Below are positions 4,929 to 25,426 of a stretch of DNA of 64,000 nt, piece after piece. The notes beneath the pieces are model-generated. The model was not told where the DNA came from, did no database searches, and worked only from the letters and a program-made list of their open reading frames with translations. Origin of the DNA: Micromonospora sp. WMMD980 (GTDB taxonomy: Bacteria; Actinomycetota; Actinomycetes; Mycobacteriales; Micromonosporaceae); assembly GCF_029626035.1 (NCBI RefSeq), contig NZ_JARUBE010000003.1:558001-622000 (forward strand). The letters are read 5' to 3'. Position numbers and translations under genes: made by a program. Positions within the stretch are counted from its first letter, which is position 1. Each line of letters begins with the position of its first letter.

Positions 4929-5733
4929 CGAGCCGCCCGACCCCGCCCATGAAGACCGCCCGTTCGGCGTTCTCCGCCTGGTCGGGGGCGTCCGGCCGCC
5001 ACTGCGGCACCCACACCACGCCCGGTTCGACCAACTCGAAGCCGGCGAAGAGCGCGGTCAACTCGGCCCGGCCGCGGATGAACAGCTGGCTGTCGGTGCG
5101 CCGGTAGACCCGCTCCGCCTCGGCCCGCTCGCCGGTGTGGTCGCGGCCGTCGTCGCTGGCCTGGGAGAGCACCAGGTGGCTGCCGGGCGCCAGCGCCGCG
5201 CGCAGGGTCCGCAGGATCTCGTCCGGCCGGTCGGAGTCCGGGACGAAGTGCAGCACCGCCACGATCATCACCGCGATCGGCTCAGTGAAGTCGAGCAGTC
5301 GGGTGACGTCCGGATGGCGCAGGATCGCCTCCGGGTGACGCAGGTCCTCCTGGACCACGACGGCACGCTCGTCGCCGGCCAGGATCTCCTGGCTGTGCGC
5401 CACGGCCACCGGGTCCACGTCGACGTAGACCACCCGGGACCCCGGGTCGATCCGCTGCGCGATCTCGTGCACGTTGCCCACGGTCGGGATGCCGGAGCCG
5501 ATGTCCAGGAACTGACGCACCCCGGCGTCGGCCAGGTAGTGCACCGCCCGGCGGAGGAAGGCGCGGTTGGCCTGCGCCATCAGCGGGGCCTCCGGCACCG
5601 CCTCCACCATCGCCCGGGCGGCGGCCCGGTCGGCCGCGAAGTTGTGCGACCCGCCCAGGTAGTAGTCGTACATGCGGGCGACGCTCGGGCGCTCGATGTC
5701 GATCGTCTCGGGTGCCCAGTCCGGCCGCTGCAT
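4921..5733 (-). CDS. DUF574 SAM-dependent methyltransferase
   Basis: A 270-residue protein of the actinobacterial DUF574/Methyltransf_19 family: class I methyltransferase fold, physiological substrate unknown. It has the family N-terminus with SVARMYDYYLGGSHNF, the SAM-binding motif LDIGSGIPTVGNVHE and an acidic strand end VVYVDVDPVAV. The ATG was chosen because the MQRPDW start matches family N-termini, whereas the longer open frame adds a basic low-complexity extension. It overlaps the cyclic di-GMP gene by 8 nt. Members of this family are commonly found in many copies beside regulatory genes in actinomycetes, so a regulatory link to the downstream GGDEF-EAL protein is possible but unproven. 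Confidence 0.88.
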   Translation of the reverse strand: MQRPDWAPETIDIERPSVARMYDYYLGGSHNFAADRAAARAMVEAVPEAPLMAQANRAFLRRAVHYLADAGVRQFLDIGSGIPTVGNVHEIAQRIDPGSRVVYVDVDPVAVAHSQEILAGDERAVVVQEDLRHPEAILRHPDVTRLLDFTEPIAVMIVAVLHFVPDSDRPDEILRTLRAALAPGSHLVLSQASDDGRDHTGERAEAERVYRRTDSQLFIRGRAELTALFAGFELVEPGVVWVPQWRPDAPDQAENAERAVFMGGVGRLGA

Positions 5734-19121: not shown

Positions 19122-22100
19122 TCAGCCGGCCCCGGCGATCCGGAGCAGGCCGCCCGCGGCATGCCGGGCCGCGAACGCGCGTACCCGGGCCAGCGTCTCC
19201 GCCGCGGCCGCCGGATCAGCCCCGGCCAACGGAACCACCGCCAGGGCGGCGGCGATGATCTGGTCGGTCGCGTCGGTCATCCCGGCGTAGTCCGCCGCGG
19301 CGGCGGTGAACAACCGGCCGGCCCGGGCCGGGTCACCGTCACGGCGGGCCAGCGCCGCGTCCGCCGACCGGCCGGCCGCCCGCGCCCAGCGGGTGGCGCG
19401 CGGGGCGCGGCGCAGCAGGTCGCGCACCAGCACCGCCGCGTCGCCGCCGAGCAGGCCGGCGACGTGCCCGACCGCCGGCACCCACTCGGCGAACGGAATC
19501 ATCCGGGTCCGCCGCCAGTCCTCGTCCAGCTCGGTCAGGAGCGCGAGCGCCTCGTCCCGGCGGCCCTGCACCGCCCGGCAGAGCGCGGCGTGCGCCACGG
19601 TGGACCGCAACACCCGGTGGAAGCCGCTGCGCCGGGCGGCGACGAGCGCCTGGTCCACCAGGTCCGGGCCGCCGGGGCCGACGCGCGGCCCGTCGCCCAG
19701 CGCCCGGATCCAGCCGGAGACGGCCACGATGTGCAGGTCCCACTCGTCGGTCGGCCGCCGGATGGACCCCTCGGCCATCCGCAGCGCCGCGGTCCAGTCA
19801 CCGCTGTAGTAGGACCGGGTCCACTGGTCGCTGAAGCTCACCGTGAGACCGTGCTCGCCGGCCAGGTCCAGTGACCGTTGTTCGTCGACCAGCCGGGCCG
19901 AGCCGGCCAGGTCGCCCTCCTCCTGCAACGCCCACGCCAGGTTGTGCACCGCGCGGCGGCGGCTGGTCAGCCGCTCCACCCGGCACTCCTCGGTGACCTC
20001 GGTCAGTTCGGCGAACGCCTCCGCCACGCCGGCCTGGTAACGGGCCACCGCCAGGGTGATCCGGGCGTTGGCCCGTGCCTCCCGCAGCTCCAGCCGTTCG
20101 GCCAGCTCGGCGGCGCTGCCGGCGGCGGCGCAGGCGGGTTCGGTCTCCGCGTCGAGCATGTACGCCCGGGCCAGCTCGAGCAGCACGCCGACCTTGTCCT
20201 CGCTGTCCGGCAGCGCGGCGTGCAGCCGGATCGCCCGGTCCAGGCAGCGCAGCGTCTCCGACCGGTCCGCCCGGGCCCAGGCCGCGGTGGCCAGCAGCCG
20301 CCACGCCTTGGCCGCGCCGGGCAGGTCACCGGCGTCGGTGAGCCGCCCGGCCAGGCCGGTGAGCACCGCCGTGCCGTCGGCGACCAGGAACCCGTCCTGG
20401 TCGGCATAGAACGCCAGCTCGGCCTGGAACAGCTCGAGCGCCGGATCCGGCCCGCACTCGACGGTGAGCGCGCGTTCCACCAGCGTGGCCGCGGTGTCCA
20501 GCGCGTGCAGCTCGTACGCGCGGCGGGCGGCCCGGTGCAGCGCGGACCGGGTGGCCGCGGCGTACGGGGCCTGGTCCAGGCCCACCGTGCGGGCGATCTC
20601 GTGCGCCGCCCACCGGTGGTTGGCCACCACCTCGGCCAGGTCGTGCTGCCGGCCGTCGGCGAGCTGCTCCAGCCAGTCGGCGGCGCGCTGGTGCCGGGCC
20701 ACCCGCTCGGCGCGCGGCAGCCGCTGATAGCAGACGTCGCGCACCAGCACGTGCCGGAACCGGTACTCCGGCTGCCCGGGCATGGTCGAGGTGGGCAGCT
20801 CGAAGACCAGGTCGCGCCGCTGGAGCCGGTGCAGCGCCCGTTCCACCCACTCGGCCGGCCGGCCCAGGGCCAGCGCCACCGGCGCCGCCCAGAACTGCAC
20901 CCCGACCACCGAGGCGGCCTGGAGCACCGCCCGGTCGGCGGGGTCCAGCAGGTCCAGCCGGTTGGCGATGACCGCCTGGACGGTACGCGGCATCCCGGCG
21001 CCGCCGGCCGGTTCGAGGCGTACCGGGCCGGCGGCCCGCTCGACCAGGCCGCCGTCGAGCAGCATCCGGGCGTACTCCTGGGCGTAGAGCGGGTTGCCGT
21101 CGGCGAACTCGATCAGCGGCGCGCGGGCGGTGCTGGGCAGCGTGGCCTGGCCGAGCAGCAGCGAGTAGAGCGTGTCGATGTCGCCGTCGTGCATCGGCGG
21201 CACCGAGATGGACATGGCGCCGCTGATCGTGCCGGTCCACGCCGGGTGCCGCTCGCGCAGCTCCGGCCGGGCGGTGGCGACGACCAGCAGCGGCACGTTG
21301 CGGGCCGCCGCGCCGAGCTGCTCGACGAAGGAGAGCATCGCCTCGTCGGCCCAGTGCATGTCCTCGAAGACGAGCACGGTCGGGCCGGTGGCGGCCAGCG
21401 CGAGCAGGAACCGCCGCCACGCCGCCTCGGTCTCGGCCGAGGTGAGCCGCTCCCCGGGCACGCCCACCAGCGGGCCCAACGCCTCGGCCAGCCGCACCGC
21501 GTGCGGGTCGGCGAGCCGGCCCAGCCGCTCGCGCAGGCGCTCCCGGGCGGCGACCGGGTCGTCGGCGCCGGTCAGCCCGGTCCAGCGCCGCACGATGTCG
21601 GCCAGCGCGGCGTAGGTGACGTTCTCGCCGAACGGCGGGCACTGACCGGTCAGCCAGGTGACCCGCGCGCCGGGCAGGTTCGCCGCGTGCCGGGCCAGCT
21701 CGCGCAGGAGCCGGCTCTTGCCCACCCCGGCCGGGCCGAAGACGGTCAGCAACTGCGAGGTGCGCTCGGTCACCGTGCGGTGCAGCGCGCTGACCAGCAG
21801 GCCCCGCTCGTGGTCCCGGTCGACCATCGGGGTCAGCTCAGCGCCCTGGTCGTCGCGCCGGGGTCGGGCCTGCACGGCCAGCCAGATCCGGCTCACCGCC
21901 GACCGGCCGCGTAGCGTCACCGGCGGCTGGTCGGCGTACTCCATCTCGCGTCGGGTCGCCGCCCAGGTGCTCTCGTCGACCACCACGCCGCCGACCGGGG
22001 CCAGCGCCTGCAGGCGGCTCGCGGTGTTGACCACGTCGCCGGTGACGAACGCCTGGCCGCCGTCGCGCGCCGCGGCCAGGTCGACGAGCGCCTCCCCGGT

Positions 22101-22589
22101 GGCGATGCCGACCCGGAAGCCGAGCGGCGGGTGCGGCCCGGCCGGCTGCCGGGCCAGGCTCCGCTGCAGCTCCAGCCCGGCGCGTACGCAGCGCAGCGCG
22201 TCGTTGTCGGTGGCCACGGGCGCGCCGAACAACGCCATGACCGCGTCGCCGATGTACTTCTCCACCACACCGCCGTACTGGTGCACCAGCCGGCGCACCG
22301 TGGCGAAGTAGACCTGTTGCAGGCCGCGCGCCTGTTCCGGGTCGGCCCGCTCGGCATAGGTGGTGAAGTCGACGATGTCGATGAAGAGCACGCTGACCTG
22401 GCGGCGGTCCTCCTGCACGGCAACCGCGTGGTCGCGCAGTGGCTGGCCGCAGTTGGTGCAGAAGTTGGCGCCGGCGTCGTTGGCGTGGCCGCAGCCCGGG
22501 CAGGCGGCGGCGAGCGGCCGGCCGCACCCGCCGCAGAAGCGGTCGTCCGGCCCGGCGCTCCGCGAGCAGTGTCCACAGGTGAGGTCGAT
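19122..22589 (-). CDS. Class III nucleotide cyclase with zinc ribbons, ATPase and TPR-like region
   Basis: A giant signalling protein of about 1,155 residues. Two zinc ribbons come first (CGHC, FCGGCG, CPGCG, FCTNCG), then a class III cyclase domain with metal Asps in LFIDIVDFT and EKYIGDAVMALFG and the VVNTASRLQ transition-state motif. A STAND/AAA-type ATPase follows, with a P-loop GPAGVGKS and Walker B VLVFEDMHWADE, and a long helical repeat region. The first canonical start is a GTG 57 codons downstream, which would remove the zinc ribbons. I extended to an ATC codon that has GGAG 6 nt upstream; no ATG, GTG or TTG lies between. If ATC is not used, the protein starts at complement 22418 (1,098 residues). 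Confidence 0.85.
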   Translation of the reverse strand: MDLTCGHCSRSAGPDDRFCGGCGRPLAAACPGCGHANDAGANFCTNCGQPLRDHAVAVQEDRRQVSVLFIDIVDFTTYAERADPEQARGLQQVYFATVRRLVHQYGGVVEKYIGDAVMALFGAPVATDNDALRCVRAGLELQRSLARQPAGPHPPLGFRVGIATGEALVDLAAARDGGQAFVTGDVVNTASRLQALAPVGGVVVDESTWAATRREMEYADQPPVTLRGRSAVSRIWLAVQARPRRDDQGAELTPMVDRDHERGLLVSALHRTVTERTSQLLTVFGPAGVGKSRLLRELARHAANLPGARVTWLTGQCPPFGENVTYAALADIVRRWTGLTGADDPVAARERLRERLGRLADPHAVRLAEALGPLVGVPGERLTSAETEAAWRRFLLALAATGPTVLVFEDMHWADEAMLSFVEQLGAAARNVPLLVVATARPELRERHPAWTGTISGAMSISVPPMHDGDIDTLYSLLLGQATLPSTARAPLIEFADGNPLYAQEYARMLLDGGLVERAAGPVRLEPAGGAGMPRTVQAVIANRLDLLDPADRAVLQAASVVGVQFWAAPVALALGRPAEWVERALHRLQRRDLVFELPTSTMPGQPEYRFRHVLVRDVCYQRLPRAERVARHQRAADWLEQLADGRQHDLAEVVANHRWAAHEIARTVGLDQAPYAAATRSALHRAARRAYELHALDTAATLVERALTVECGPDPALELFQAELAFYADQDGFLVADGTAVLTGLAGRLTDAGDLPGAAKAWRLLATAAWARADRSETLRCLDRAIRLHAALPDSEDKVGVLLELARAYMLDAETEPACAAAGSAAELAERLELREARANARITLAVARYQAGVAEAFAELTEVTEECRVERLTSRRRAVHNLAWALQEEGDLAGSARLVDEQRSLDLAGEHGLTVSFSDQWTRSYYSGDWTAALRMAEGSIRRPTDEWDLHIVAVSGWIRALGDGPRVGPGGPDLVDQALVAARRSGFHRVLRSTVAHAALCRAVQGRRDEALALLTELDEDWRRTRMIPFAEWVPAVGHVAGLLGGDAAVLVRDLLRRAPRATRWARAAGRSADAALARRDGDPARAGRLFTAAAADYAGMTDATDQIIAAALAVVPLAGADPAAAAETLARVRAFAARHAAGGLLRIAGAG

Positions 22590-22728: not shown

Positions 22729-22974
22729 GTGCACGTCCGGCTTTCCGCCCCATGGACCGATCCACGAGGGACGCTGTGGGCCTCGGGCGACACGGTCGAC
22801 GTGGACGCCGTCACACTCGCCGAACTGGAGGAAAAAGGCATGGTGGAGCAGCCCACGAGCAGCGGATCGTCCGAGACCACGACCCCCACGACGACCACGC
22901 CGCCGAAGAAGACCGACCCGTCGAAGATCGGCCCCGGCCCGAGCGCGCCGCCGGCCGACACCAAGGACAACTGA
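22729..22974 (+). CDS. Small conserved-looking protein with Pro/Thr tail
   Basis: An 81-residue protein. Residues 1-41 look like a small folded domain with a beta-hairpin character (MHVRLSAPWTDPRGTLWASG, then TVDVDAVTLAELEEKGMVEQ), similar in style to short domains of phage-head or secretion accessory proteins, although nothing decisive is visible. The rest is a Ser/Thr/Pro/Lys-rich tail, probably disordered. GTG has an AGGGAGAG ribosome-binding site at good spacing. The gene is divergent from the cyclase gene and is followed by a very strong hairpin, which supports it as an independent transcription unit. There is no signal peptide, lipobox or sorting signal. Function unknown. Confidence 0.7.
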   Translation: MHVRLSAPWTDPRGTLWASGDTVDVDAVTLAELEEKGMVEQPTSSGSSETTTPTTTTPPKKTDPSKIGPGPSAPPADTKDN

Positions 22975-23026: not shown

Positions 23027-24249
23027 TCAGGCCACCGCCGCCACGGCTGTCCGCCGCCTCGTCCGTCCACCGAGGGCCCGGGTCAGCAGCGGCACCACGA
23101 GCGCCAGCGTGGCGAGGATCCCGACGCCGGACACGGCCAGCAGCCACCGGGGTCCGATCGCTCCGAGCAGGGACGCCCCGGCGAGGTACGCCAGCACCTC
23201 CGCCCCGTAGGGGGACATGTAGACCGTGCCGAAGACGACGCCGAGTCGTTCGGCCGGCACGTGCTGCTGGATGAGCGTGTCCGCCGCCACGTGGTGCCAA
23301 CCCGCGCCGGCCCCGGCCAGCGCCTGCCCGACGAGCGCCACGCCGATCACCGGACTCATGCCGGTGACGAGCGTGCCGACGCCGAGCGCGAGCACCGCGC
23401 CGTAGAGCACGAACTGCATCCTGGTTCGTCCGCCGGCGCGGGCCAGCAGCATCGGGCCGAGCACCATGCCCGCGCCGTAGGCGGTGCCGAGCAGACCGAT
23501 CATGACCTCGTCGGCCGCGAGCGCGGTGCGTCCGAGCGGCACCAGCGCCAGGTTGTCCAGCGCGGCGAACGTCACCAGCACCAGGAAACCGATCGAGACC
23601 GCCCGCACACCACGCCGCTGGTACGCACGACGCGCATTCCCGCGCCGAGCACCTGACGGTACGGCTCACGCGGTGGGGTCGGCGCGCCGGGCGCGGACAG
23701 CCCGCGTACGCCGCCGATCAGCAGCGCGGACGCCACGAAGGTGGCGGCGTCGACGATCAGCGTGGACGTCAGGTCGATGGTGGCCAGCATCAGCCCGCCG
23801 AGGGCCGGGCCGGCGGCGAACCCGATGTTCATGCCGACGGCCAGTTGGGCGTTGGCCGCGGGCAGCCGCTCCCGGCCTACCAGCCGGGGCAGCAGGCTCC
23901 GGCCGGCCGGGGTGAAGGCGGTGGCGGCCAGGGTGGCCGCGGTGACCGCCGCGAGCAGCACCGGCAGCGGCGGGGCCAGCAGCGCCAGGGCGAGGTAGAG
24001 CAGGGCCTGGGTCAGGTCGCAGCCGACCATCAGCCGGCGTTGGTCGAACCGGTCGGCGAGCGCACCCAGCAACGGTCCGAGGAGCCTCGGCGCGGTGGTC
24101 GCCAGCAGCAGCAGGGCCACCGCCGTGCCTCCGTATCTGTCGTAGGCGGCGATCAGCAGCGCGGTGCGGGCCAGCTGGTCGCCCAGGTAGGAGACGAGGC
24201 GGGCGGACCAGTAACGACGAAAGACGACATTGCCGCGGATCAGTGACAT
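23027..24249 (-). pseudogene. MFS transporter with an apparent frameshift
   Basis: Together the two frames encode a normal-length (about 407-residue) major facilitator efflux protein of the 12-helix type. The first frame starts MSLIRGNVVFRRYW with a GAGGAG ribosome-binding site and covers helices 1-6, including the loop motif GALADRFDQRR. It runs out of frame after LGAGMRVVRTSG and stops at 23572. The rest (AVSIGFLVLVTFAALDN onward, helices 7-12) is in another frame and ends at 23027. The break lies at about 23600-23615 and one missing base would restore a continuous protein. It may be a real inactivating mutation or a sequencing error in a GC-rich run. The gene is divergent from the GWxGPTR peptide gene. 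Confidence 0.82.
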
Positions 24250-24463
24250 GCCCGTCAACTCCTCGCTGCGATCGGTCTGTCCGGCGGGGCACCGGGGCAG
24301 GGGCGCGCGGGGCAACCTTGGCAGCGGGGATCGGGGTCGGACAACGGCTCTTCAGGCAGCAATTCATGCACATATGTCTATTTTGTCCGACTCGCTCCGG
24401 CCGTAGCGTCTGTCCCGTACCGCCGCACCAGCCGCGGTGGACCGACGATCTCCGGGAGGAACG

Positions 24464-24619
24464 ATGACCACCTCGACCAACGCCACCGCGACCGGCTGGG
24501 CCGGCCCCGGCTTCTCCGCCACCACCCCGCAGGGCTGGATCGGCCCCACCCGCGGTTGGGCCGGCCCGACCCGTGGCTGGGTCGGCCCCACGCGTGGCTG
24601 GCTCGGCCCGACGCGCTGA
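24464..24619 (+). CDS. Short peptide gene with four GWxGPTR tandem repeats
   Basis: A 51-residue peptide. Residues 1-23 are rich in Thr, Ala and Ser and include a degenerate unit GWAGPGF. Residues 24-51 are four perfect heptads: GWIGPTR, GWAGPTR, GWVGPTR and GWLGPTR, ending exactly at the stop. The DNA repeats with a 21-bp period, with synonymous differences (GGC/GGT, CCC/CCG, CGC/CGT) while the amino acids are kept, except for one variable aliphatic position. That pattern suggests selection on the peptide. A GGGAGGA ribosome-binding site is ideally placed before the ATG, and a 21-bp perfect hairpin follows. No Cys or transmembrane helix is present. It could be a multi-core precursor of a modified peptide, with Arg-Gly as a cleavage site. 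I recognise no characterised family. Confidence 0.75.
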   Translation: MTTSTNATATGWAGPGFSATTPQGWIGPTRGWAGPTRGWVGPTRGWLGPTR

Positions 24620-24624
24620 CGGGA

Positions 24625-24669
24625 CGCACGCAGGCGCCGACCGCCTCGGGCGGTCGGCGCCTGCGTGCG
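24625..24669 (+). terminator. Perfect 21-bp stem terminator after the repeat peptide gene
   Basis: The two arms (24625-24645 and 24649-24669) pair over 21 bp without mismatch around a 3-nt TCG loop. It begins 5 nt after the stop codon. This is the longest perfect hairpin noted in the window and implies strong termination of a short transcript. Confidence 0.85.
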
Positions 24670-24733: not shown

Positions 24734-25426
24734 CTAGCGGTCGCTCATGCCGGCGCGGCGGCGCAACGCGGCCACGTCGGTGACCACGATCCGGCGACCT
24801 TCGGTACGCAGCCAGCCGCGGCTGGCGAACGAGCCGATGGCCTGGTTGACGCTCTGCCGCGACCCGCCCGCCATCTCCGCGAGCTGGCTCTGGTTGAGCT
24901 CGATGGTGATCATCGGAGCCTGGCTCTCGCCGGCCAGCCGGACCAGCGTCTTGGCCACCCGGCCGGGCAGGTCGAGGAAGACGTGGTCGGCGTTCTGCTC
25001 GGTGAGCCGGCGGATCAGCTGGCCGAGCGAGCGCATCACCGCGTCGAGGATGCGCGGGTTGGAATGCACCAACTCCATGAAGGCGGGACGGGACAGCGCC
25101 AGCGCGGCGCAGTCCTCGATGGCCTCGGCGGAGGCCGACCGGGTCGAGGCGTCCAGCAGGGAGACCTCGCCCAGCACGTCGGGCGGTCGGATCACCGACA
25201 GCACGGCCCGCTCGCCGGTCGGGGCGGTGCGGAACACCGCCACGGCGCCGCGGCGCAGCACGATCAGGGACTCACCGGGATCGTTCTCGACGAAGAGGAG
25301 CTGCCCCTTGCGGTAGGTGCGCGGCACGGCCGCGGCGATGACCCGCTGCCGCACCTCCGGCTCCAGCCCGGCGAACATCTCCACGCCCGTGAGCGCGTCA
25401 CCTGGCTCCGGCAGGCGAGACTCCAC
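24734..25426 (-). CDS. Crp/Fnr-family transcriptional regulator
   Basis: A 230-residue regulator with an N-terminal cyclic-nucleotide-binding fold (about 10-130, including GESLIVLRRGAVAVFR and DVLGEVSLLDASTRSASAEA, where the Glu and Arg-Ser resemble the cAMP phosphate-binding cassette) and a C-terminal winged helix-turn-helix (QSQLAEMAGGSRQSVNQAI). The spacing fits the Crp subgroup of actinobacteria. GTG is preferred because it lies 7-8 nt from a GGGGAGG site; a TTG two codons upstream abuts that site. It may respond to cAMP made by cyclases such as the large one a few kilobases away (inference). A divergent region of about 245 bp separates it from the exoribonuclease gene. Confidence 0.9.
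   Translation of the reverse strand: MESRLPEPGDALTGVEMFAGLEPEVRQRVIAAAVPRTYRKGQLLFVENDPGESLIVLRRGAVAVFRTAPTGERAVLSVIRPPDVLGEVSLLDASTRSASAEAIEDCAALALSRPAFMELVHSNPRILDAVMRSLGQLIRRLTEQNADHVFLDLPGRVAKTLVRLAGESQAPMITIELNQSQLAEMAGGSRQSVNQAIGSFASRGWLRTEGRRIVVTDVAALRRRAGMSDR

Follow-up and report, generated by a model that had tools for sequence, protein, structure and literature searches.

A family of WxGP repeat-peptide genes divergently paired with one clade of MFS transporters in Micromonospora and a second genus

Multi-core RiPP precursors, such as those of the fungal dikaritins and the cyanobactins, carry near-identical units in tandem, and the number of these units is free. Microcin C involves an adenylating enzyme, MccB, and a terminal Asn, and its MccC is an MFS protein. 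Ryptides and other streptococcal RaS-RiPPs need a radical SAM enzyme. We know of no exporter of the EntS/Mef(A)/MFS_3 type that travels with a repeat-peptide gene. A passage of PMC6795089 describes microcin C as a modified heptapeptide carrying AMP, with a heptapeptide gene of 21 bp and a transport/efflux protein encoded by mccC. Ryptides are introduced in a passage of PMC13361665 as RaS-RiPPs under Rgg/SHP control. The locus described here, a small repeat-peptide gene divergent to an MFS_3/EntS-like transporter gene, lies in a window of 64,000 nucleotides from Micromonospora sp. WMMD980 (contig NZ_JARUBE010000003.1). Its features, in window coordinates, are as follows.

23027..24250, minus strand: MFS_3/EntS-like transporter gene, divergent to the peptide gene, frame-disrupted in the window
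24251..24463, no strand: divergent intergenic region of 213 nt from MFS start to peptide start, alignable and partly conserved in 15 Micromonospora loci
24376..24388, plus strand: AT-rich element GTCTATTTTGTCC, kept with small changes in 15 loci
24454..24460, plus strand: ribosome-binding site GGGAGGA, by sequence, with a purine-rich counterpart ahead of the start codon in the 21 listed members
24464..24619, plus strand: WxGPTR repeat-peptide gene of 51 codons, stop within the coordinates, with intact homologues in 20 other genomes
24494-24514, plus strand: degenerate unit GWAGPGF, upstream of the four 21-bp units
24533..24616, plus strand: four direct 21-bp units, product GW(I/A/V/L)GPTR
24625..24669, plus strand: perfect 21-bp hairpin, probable terminator lacking a T run, with a strong post-stop hairpin in 21/21 members
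24734..25426, minus strand: crp-type regulator gene (cNMP_binding and HTH_Crp_2), convergent with the peptide gene, a neighbour outside the module

The open reading frame at 24464-24619 on the plus strand translates as MTTSTNATATGWAGPGFSATTPQGWIGPTRGWAGPTRGWVGPTRGWLGPTR*. Translation and repeat search both agree with a preliminary description of this DNA, which had reported a 51-residue peptide with four heptads after one degenerate unit, and the GGGAGGA site that it placed before the gene is present. The four heptads differ from one another by 2-3 synonymous changes and at one variable amino-acid position, and four of the five units of this peptide end in Arg. The region is ~96% identical to that of M. 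humi (L004), and comparison of the peptide gene with that of a close relative (G092) gave three synonymous and no non-synonymous differences over the 51 codons. AlphaFold returned a mean pLDDT of 47.9 and no confident fold; the window peptide is probably disordered.

Searches of genome DNA yielded 21 intact loci, the window's included, in two genera of one family: 17 in genus g1, to which the window's genome belongs, and four in genus g51. Genus g1 was taken as Micromonospora via the named relatives L004 and L005, and g51 is called Actinoplanes-like by inference only. A database of 5.8 billion proteins returned four clear members including the window's, the others being P0002 (labelled Nonomuraea sp. 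TT08I-71), P0003 and P0004 (M. chersina), together with one further pair of overlapping protein records related to the peptide, P0006/P0007 (JGI). A peptide profile matched 28/160 genomes, of which 17 were module genomes (16 intact plus the truncated G019), with G174 missed and the other 11 being chance matches or unread. Another profile search matched 26 genomes; 20 of these were module loci, and matches in G034, G305 and G182:C35 lay outside the set of loci read. The profile also missed the shortest member, which was seen only upstream of its MFS gene in G356. Profile matches in G110, G364 and G205 were rejected on reading, and a match in L003 (G015) proved to be a portion of a PPGGGYGP repeat protein. 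A wide DNA pattern of three WxGP units matched 84/300 genomes, and was kept out of all counts because it is noisy in GC-rich genomes and its reversed control also matched many genomes.

Members of the family are 20 to 60 residues long (start codons beyond the Micromonospora set were assigned from the ribosome site), and each repeats the WxGP spacing 2 to 7 times. Among 101 pooled units, which were selected by the W-x-G-P motif so that the fixed W, G and P follow from the selection, x was Ala in 74 and the next residue was Gly or Thr in 98. The unit-final residue was Arg in 43, Phe in 26, Tyr in 22, Ile in six, Val in two, and Asn and Ala in one each. The proposal in the preliminary description that each core is released after Arg therefore does not hold as a rule of the family, only 43/101 units having that end. 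The last residue of the whole peptide was Arg in 21/21 members, within GPTR in 17, GATR in three and GASR in one. In G160 (L021/L058) the DNA past the stop still encodes IGPTR followed by a stop, so the peptide tail was shortened in that genome. N-termini are Thr-rich in Micromonospora and in L095, and begin MIKNER, MIKQAH or MIMQAQ in the other g51 members (starts assigned by inspection). Comparison of the 21 intact members revealed no family-wide conserved leader, and no signal peptide was apparent by eye. The stretch formerly described as leader-like, Thr-rich in Micromonospora, is not conserved over the family as a whole; the shortest member, the 20-residue peptide of G356, reads MIKNERTWAGPTRTWAGPTR (start codon assigned by inspection).

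Selection on the peptide, which the preliminary description had deduced from the repeats, was borne out by a pooled pN/pS of 0.24 (within-group codon comparisons, 30 non-independent pairs). Single pairs ranged from 0 to 0.99, the highest value coming from L096 with L103 over 20 codons. By these codon comparisons the peptide is under purifying selection. A GC-rich DNA tandem repeat that is open by chance would account for 21-bp tandem units in GC-rich DNA, and chance-like WxGP tandem frames do occur elsewhere, for example in G110; the pooled pN/pS, the retention of a ribosome site and of the C-terminus across 21 loci, and the MFS linkage described below all stand against it, and the homologues refute it, leaving this explanation scarcely credible. 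The preliminary description had named an absence of homologues with conserved repeats in other genomes, together with a missing transcript, as its ground for refutation; since such homologues exist (21 intact loci, the window's included, with 2-7 units each), that ground falls away and a chance origin of the window ORF is excluded. On comparison of these loci, the window's repeat ORF is a genuine gene and a member of a real family. Two other occurrences of similar motifs were recorded: WAGPES hexapeptide repeats in an open frame of L100 (G598, 5002-5196), a distant genome of the class, and three WAGPTV motifs in the tail of P0008 (labelled Paractinoplanes maris), a hypothetical protein of 72 aa.

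The peptide had no match in Pfam, NCBIfam or PADLOC, in keeping with the earlier statement that it belongs to no named family. Neither the MFS protein nor two peptides matched any PADLOC defence family at E <= 0.1, PHROGs gave one peptide hit at E 0.45 and nothing useful, and Rfam gave only miRNA matches far below threshold. Searches of the open-access literature found no paper on a WxGP repeat-peptide family. The peptide family and its link to an MFS clade appear undescribed in the databases and open-access literature searched.

The transporter gene is split in the window into ORFs 23572-24315 and 23027-23608, with a frame break near 23.58-23.61 kb that is either a true break or an assembly error; the gene is in one frame in M. 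humi (L004) and full length in 16 Micromonospora relatives. The divergent MFS exporter gene singled out in the preliminary description is thus relevant, given its one-clade linkage to the peptide, but is not intact in the window. The protein matched Pfam MFS_3 at 78.3 bits (cut-off 27), and the EntS and MefA models matched with E values of 2e-21 and 3e-15. NCBIfam family cut-offs were not reached by the L005 MFS protein, which scored 22.7/575 bits for ryptide export, 76.4/324 for EntS and 56.1/675 for Mef(A). No solved structure was found for the MFS by sequence at 0.001.

A transporter-first search, blind to the peptide, matched 27/160 Micromonospora genomes at 1e-60. A close MFS was present in 19/160 (E <= 1e-60), full length in 16 and broken in three, namely the window's own genome (G000, frame-disrupted) and G019 and G182 (both truncated). 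Eight other genomes held only a homologue of ~40% identity, and second matches in G174 and G002 brought such homologue loci to 10; a WxGP small ORF was found beside 0/10 of them (flanks up to 1.5 kb). All 16 full-length Micromonospora copies, and G000, carry the peptide. In G019 (L002, about 1500-1600) the last peptide units are joined to the 3' portion of the MFS gene, and the remnants look as after a deletion; G182 kept an MFS stump, and no WxGP peptide was found there. In g51, a close MFS occurred in 4/67 genomes (E <= 1e-70), three already known from the peptide and the fourth being G356. A divergent peptide gene therefore stands beside 20/20 full-length MFS genes of the clade, and conversely 21/21 intact peptide loci adjoin an MFS gene of this one clade, the window's own being the frame-broken one.

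Beyond these two genera, 66 genomes from 42 other genera of the family gave two MFS matches at 1e-75, in G203 and G239, and a class sample of 394 genomes gave none at 1e-75 besides the window's own. The G239 protein is 43% identical, and no WxGP peptide was seen in its upstream stretch. The G203 gene (L132, 4142-6267) has no peptide and no room for one between crp and MFS. It lies on the same strand as crp and, standing some tens of nucleotides at most behind it, probably lacks a promoter region of its own. The G203 MFS gene also carries about 79 extra codons mid-gene. In a tree of 31 rows the 20 peptide-linked transporters formed one clade (support 97/93), which G203 joined at 100/99. The tree was midpoint-rooted with a long-branch outgroup, the G203 row omits about 79 codons, L067 was left out, and L065, L069 and L073 were included; the exact place of G203 is unsure because of its long branch, the omitted codons, the midpoint root and the long-branch outgroup. 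The simplest history suggested by these sequences is that the peptide was gained once, beside this MFS, and retained wherever the MFS is whole; alternatively, G203 has lost it.

In Micromonospora the peptide-MFS pair lies between crp and a small convergent gene. Among 10 relatives that lack the pair and in which crp was located, the small gene directly followed crp in nine, so at this locus the two genes come and go as a single block. The surroundings of the g51 loci are unlike those of Micromonospora and, in L094, L095 and L096, unlike one another, so the pair stays together away from the Micromonospora locus. The preliminary description had found no modifying enzyme adjacent, and Pfam likewise recognized no RiPP maturase family among 22 window ORF products (10.8 to 42.5 kb; two of them MFS pieces, and the scan took in part of the genes in the stretches), the small neighbour, and 10 neighbours of three g51 loci. 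The scanned neighbours included no obvious biosynthetic cluster and no regulator gene common to the g51 copies. Genes for a flavin monooxygenase and an alpha/beta hydrolase at 13.5-15.8 kb, about 9-11 kb away, have no tie to the peptide; one of the three models matching the hydrolase was serine aminopeptidase S33. An adenylate/guanylate cyclase domain fused to an AAA ATPase is encoded at 19122-22418 on the minus strand, about 2.3 kb from crp. Beside the MFS gene, at 22729-22974 on the plus strand, is a gene for a small protein resembling DUF7210 (below cut-off), found in the same place in relatives L107-L117 and L118-L123. The tail of this protein has a Thr-rich part with IGPGP, or WAGPG repeats, as in TDWAGPGGTDWAGPG; the tails of 10 module-less relatives divide into five with IGPGP and five with WAGPG/WVGPG, and IGPGP was present in 15/15 module-bearing genomes where the protein was found.

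The hairpin after the gene has arms at 24625-24645 and 24649-24669, forming a 21-nt inverted repeat that is 100% complementary with a 3-nt loop, and begins after a 5-nt gap from the stop codon. A strong hairpin in this place was computed for 21/21 family members (z -2.5 to -6.4; 90-nt fold, 60 shuffles each), in agreement with the earlier view of the gene as a unit with its own hairpin. In the g51 genomes the stem sequences differ and the position after the stop is kept. What the preliminary description called a perfect terminator is a perfect hairpin, but one with no T run, the T-tract terminator scan having returned 0 sites. The window hairpin is therefore terminator-like by position and strength only; that it acts as a terminator is probable, and the strong hairpins after the stop of all 21 members favour that role. 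A cis-acting leader peptide or attenuator, in which stalling on WxGPTR codons senses Trp or a ribosome-targeting drug and the hairpin is the attenuator, would suit a short Trp-codon-rich ORF with a strong hairpin directly after it, and a DUF5317-like gene does lie downstream on the same strand in 2/4 g51 loci, L096 and (by eye) L103. However, no conserved gene lies downstream on the same strand: crp is convergent in Micromonospora, and in L095 the next gene after the peptide is a convergent MFS. The conserved partner gene is divergent, selection acts on amino acids, and Rfam gave no real match, which leaves attenuation highly improbable.

A scan for sigma-70 promoters found none. The AT-rich element in the divergent intergenic region is, from its sequence, a possible -10 or operator. 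The genome holds one exact match to GTCYATTTTGTCC, within this element, and three more with one mismatch, against five for the reversed control. An operator regulon for the element was considered and rejected, with one exact genome copy and one-mismatch matches not above the control. The main rival to the reading developed below draws in part on this region. It holds that the disordered Trp/Pro-rich peptide is an intracellular partner or regulator that controls how active the pump is, or how strongly it is expressed, by binding the MFS, its drug or a regulator, and that the peptide arrived along with the independent divergent promoter. Its co-inheritance with one MFS clade is consistent with this, as are the partly conserved 213-nt region with its element of one exact genome copy, and the MFS of G203, which stands behind crp, probably with no promoter region of its own, and has no peptide. 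Weighing against it are the lack of any domain match or confident fold, a unit number of 2 to 7 with a free N-terminal part, which would be unusual for a specific regulator, and the scan of some of the g51 neighbours, in which no common regulator gene was seen. We consider this explanation unlikely, though the strongest of the rivals.

The reading we prefer is that the pump carries the peptide, or a piece of it, as its cargo. The two divergent genes would then form a module of a small ribosomal peptide gene, whose expression we infer, and a dedicated MFS exporter. The peptide would comprise 2 to 7 WxGP(T/G)(R/aromatic) units with Arg at its end; the whole of it, or a fragment cut from the repeat tail, would be exported by the MFS, and the product would have an extracellular role, such as that of a signal or an antagonist. 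Any enzyme needed for cleavage or modification would be encoded elsewhere or have escaped recognition. This is the most likely reading, held tentatively and with the expectation that it could prove wrong somewhat more often than right, because the pair is otherwise alone, its EntS/MefA relatives are exporters by model name, and microcin C and (by model name) ryptides offer precedent. A variable unit number with a fixed unit would also suit a multi-copy product, and the linkage to one MFS clade in two genera, in differing surroundings, speaks for this reading as well, as does the lack of a confident fold. Against the cargo reading, units with Phe or Tyr at the end (48) are more numerous than those with Arg (43), so that a single simple protease would leave some units uncut; no maturase or protease was recognized among the scanned neighbours, and the 21 members share no leader and show no apparent signal peptide; the window genome pairs an intact peptide with a broken MFS frame, unless this is an assembly error; and G203 has a pump without a peptide. 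In addition, MFS pumps mostly carry small molecules, and it would be unusual for one to transport a peptide as long as 20-60 residues.

The efflux-type relatives of the MFS bear on a further explanation, that the aromatic repeat tail is a decoy for a toxic small molecule that the MFS then expels, either sequestering this compound or being sacrificed to it, the pair being a self-protection cassette. Tandem Trp units with no confident fold, and the patchy presence in 19/160 genomes of the genus, would fit such a role. There is no known drug, however, and no obvious biosynthetic cluster among the scanned neighbours, and regular WxGP spacing with a fixed C-terminal Arg seems beyond what a sponge needs; this explanation is judged decidedly less likely than regulation. 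A structural or surface role in the cell envelope or the spore, mechanistically unrelated to the MFS, is suggested by the low-complexity composition, Thr-rich and then Trp/Gly/Pro repeats. It is improbable: no signal peptide is apparent by eye, and it leaves the one-clade MFS linkage in two genera and the absence from most of the genus unexplained.

In its fullest form, the cargo reading would make the pair a minimal system in which two genes suffice to produce and export a ribosomal peptide, with no clustered maturase, leader or protease, kept and lost together, and in which WxGPTR-type oligopeptides or the whole tail serve as a secreted signal or antagonist of this bacterial family. This is a possibility that we lean against as stated. 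If the peptide is exported by the MFS, two genes are all that an actinomycete needs to put a ribosomal peptide to use, and such a pair would be overlooked by genome mining based on modifying enzymes; if its role is rather to tune the pump, the peptide would represent a new type of pump accessory. Tiny repeat-peptide genes of this sort are in any case easily missed by protein-database searches.

Among described systems, ryptides resemble the pair in having an MFS exporter, according to the name of the NCBIfam model 'ryptide export MFS transporter' (NF041056). This model matches the peptide-linked MFS proteins weakly (22.7 and 33.8 bits, cut-off 575), and, unlike the situation in ryptides, Rgg/SHP and a radical SAM enzyme were not recognized among the neighbours scanned here. 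The transporter belongs to the same branch as the EntS/Mef(A)/MFS_3 exporters (Pfam MFS_3), whereas the window-family MFS falls below the NCBIfam family cut-offs for EntS and Mef(A). The DUF7210-like neighbour protein differs in having an N-terminal part resembling DUF7210, in occurring without the MFS and in not being found in the g51 loci searched, but in several relatives its tail resembles the peptide, with either one or two copies of the WAGPG motif or a Thr-rich part and then IGPGP. In contrast to microcin C, no adenylating enzyme was recognized nearby, and the window-type peptide is multi-unit and Arg-ended; the two are alike in that a very short gene for a ribosomal peptide is accompanied by one for a transport/efflux protein. 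Multi-core RiPP precursors differ from this family, in which no maturase or protease was recognized among the scanned neighbours, no leader is family-wide across the 21 members, and the unit-end residue is mixed. The likeness to them lies in the peptide itself, in which near-identical units stand in tandem and in variable number.
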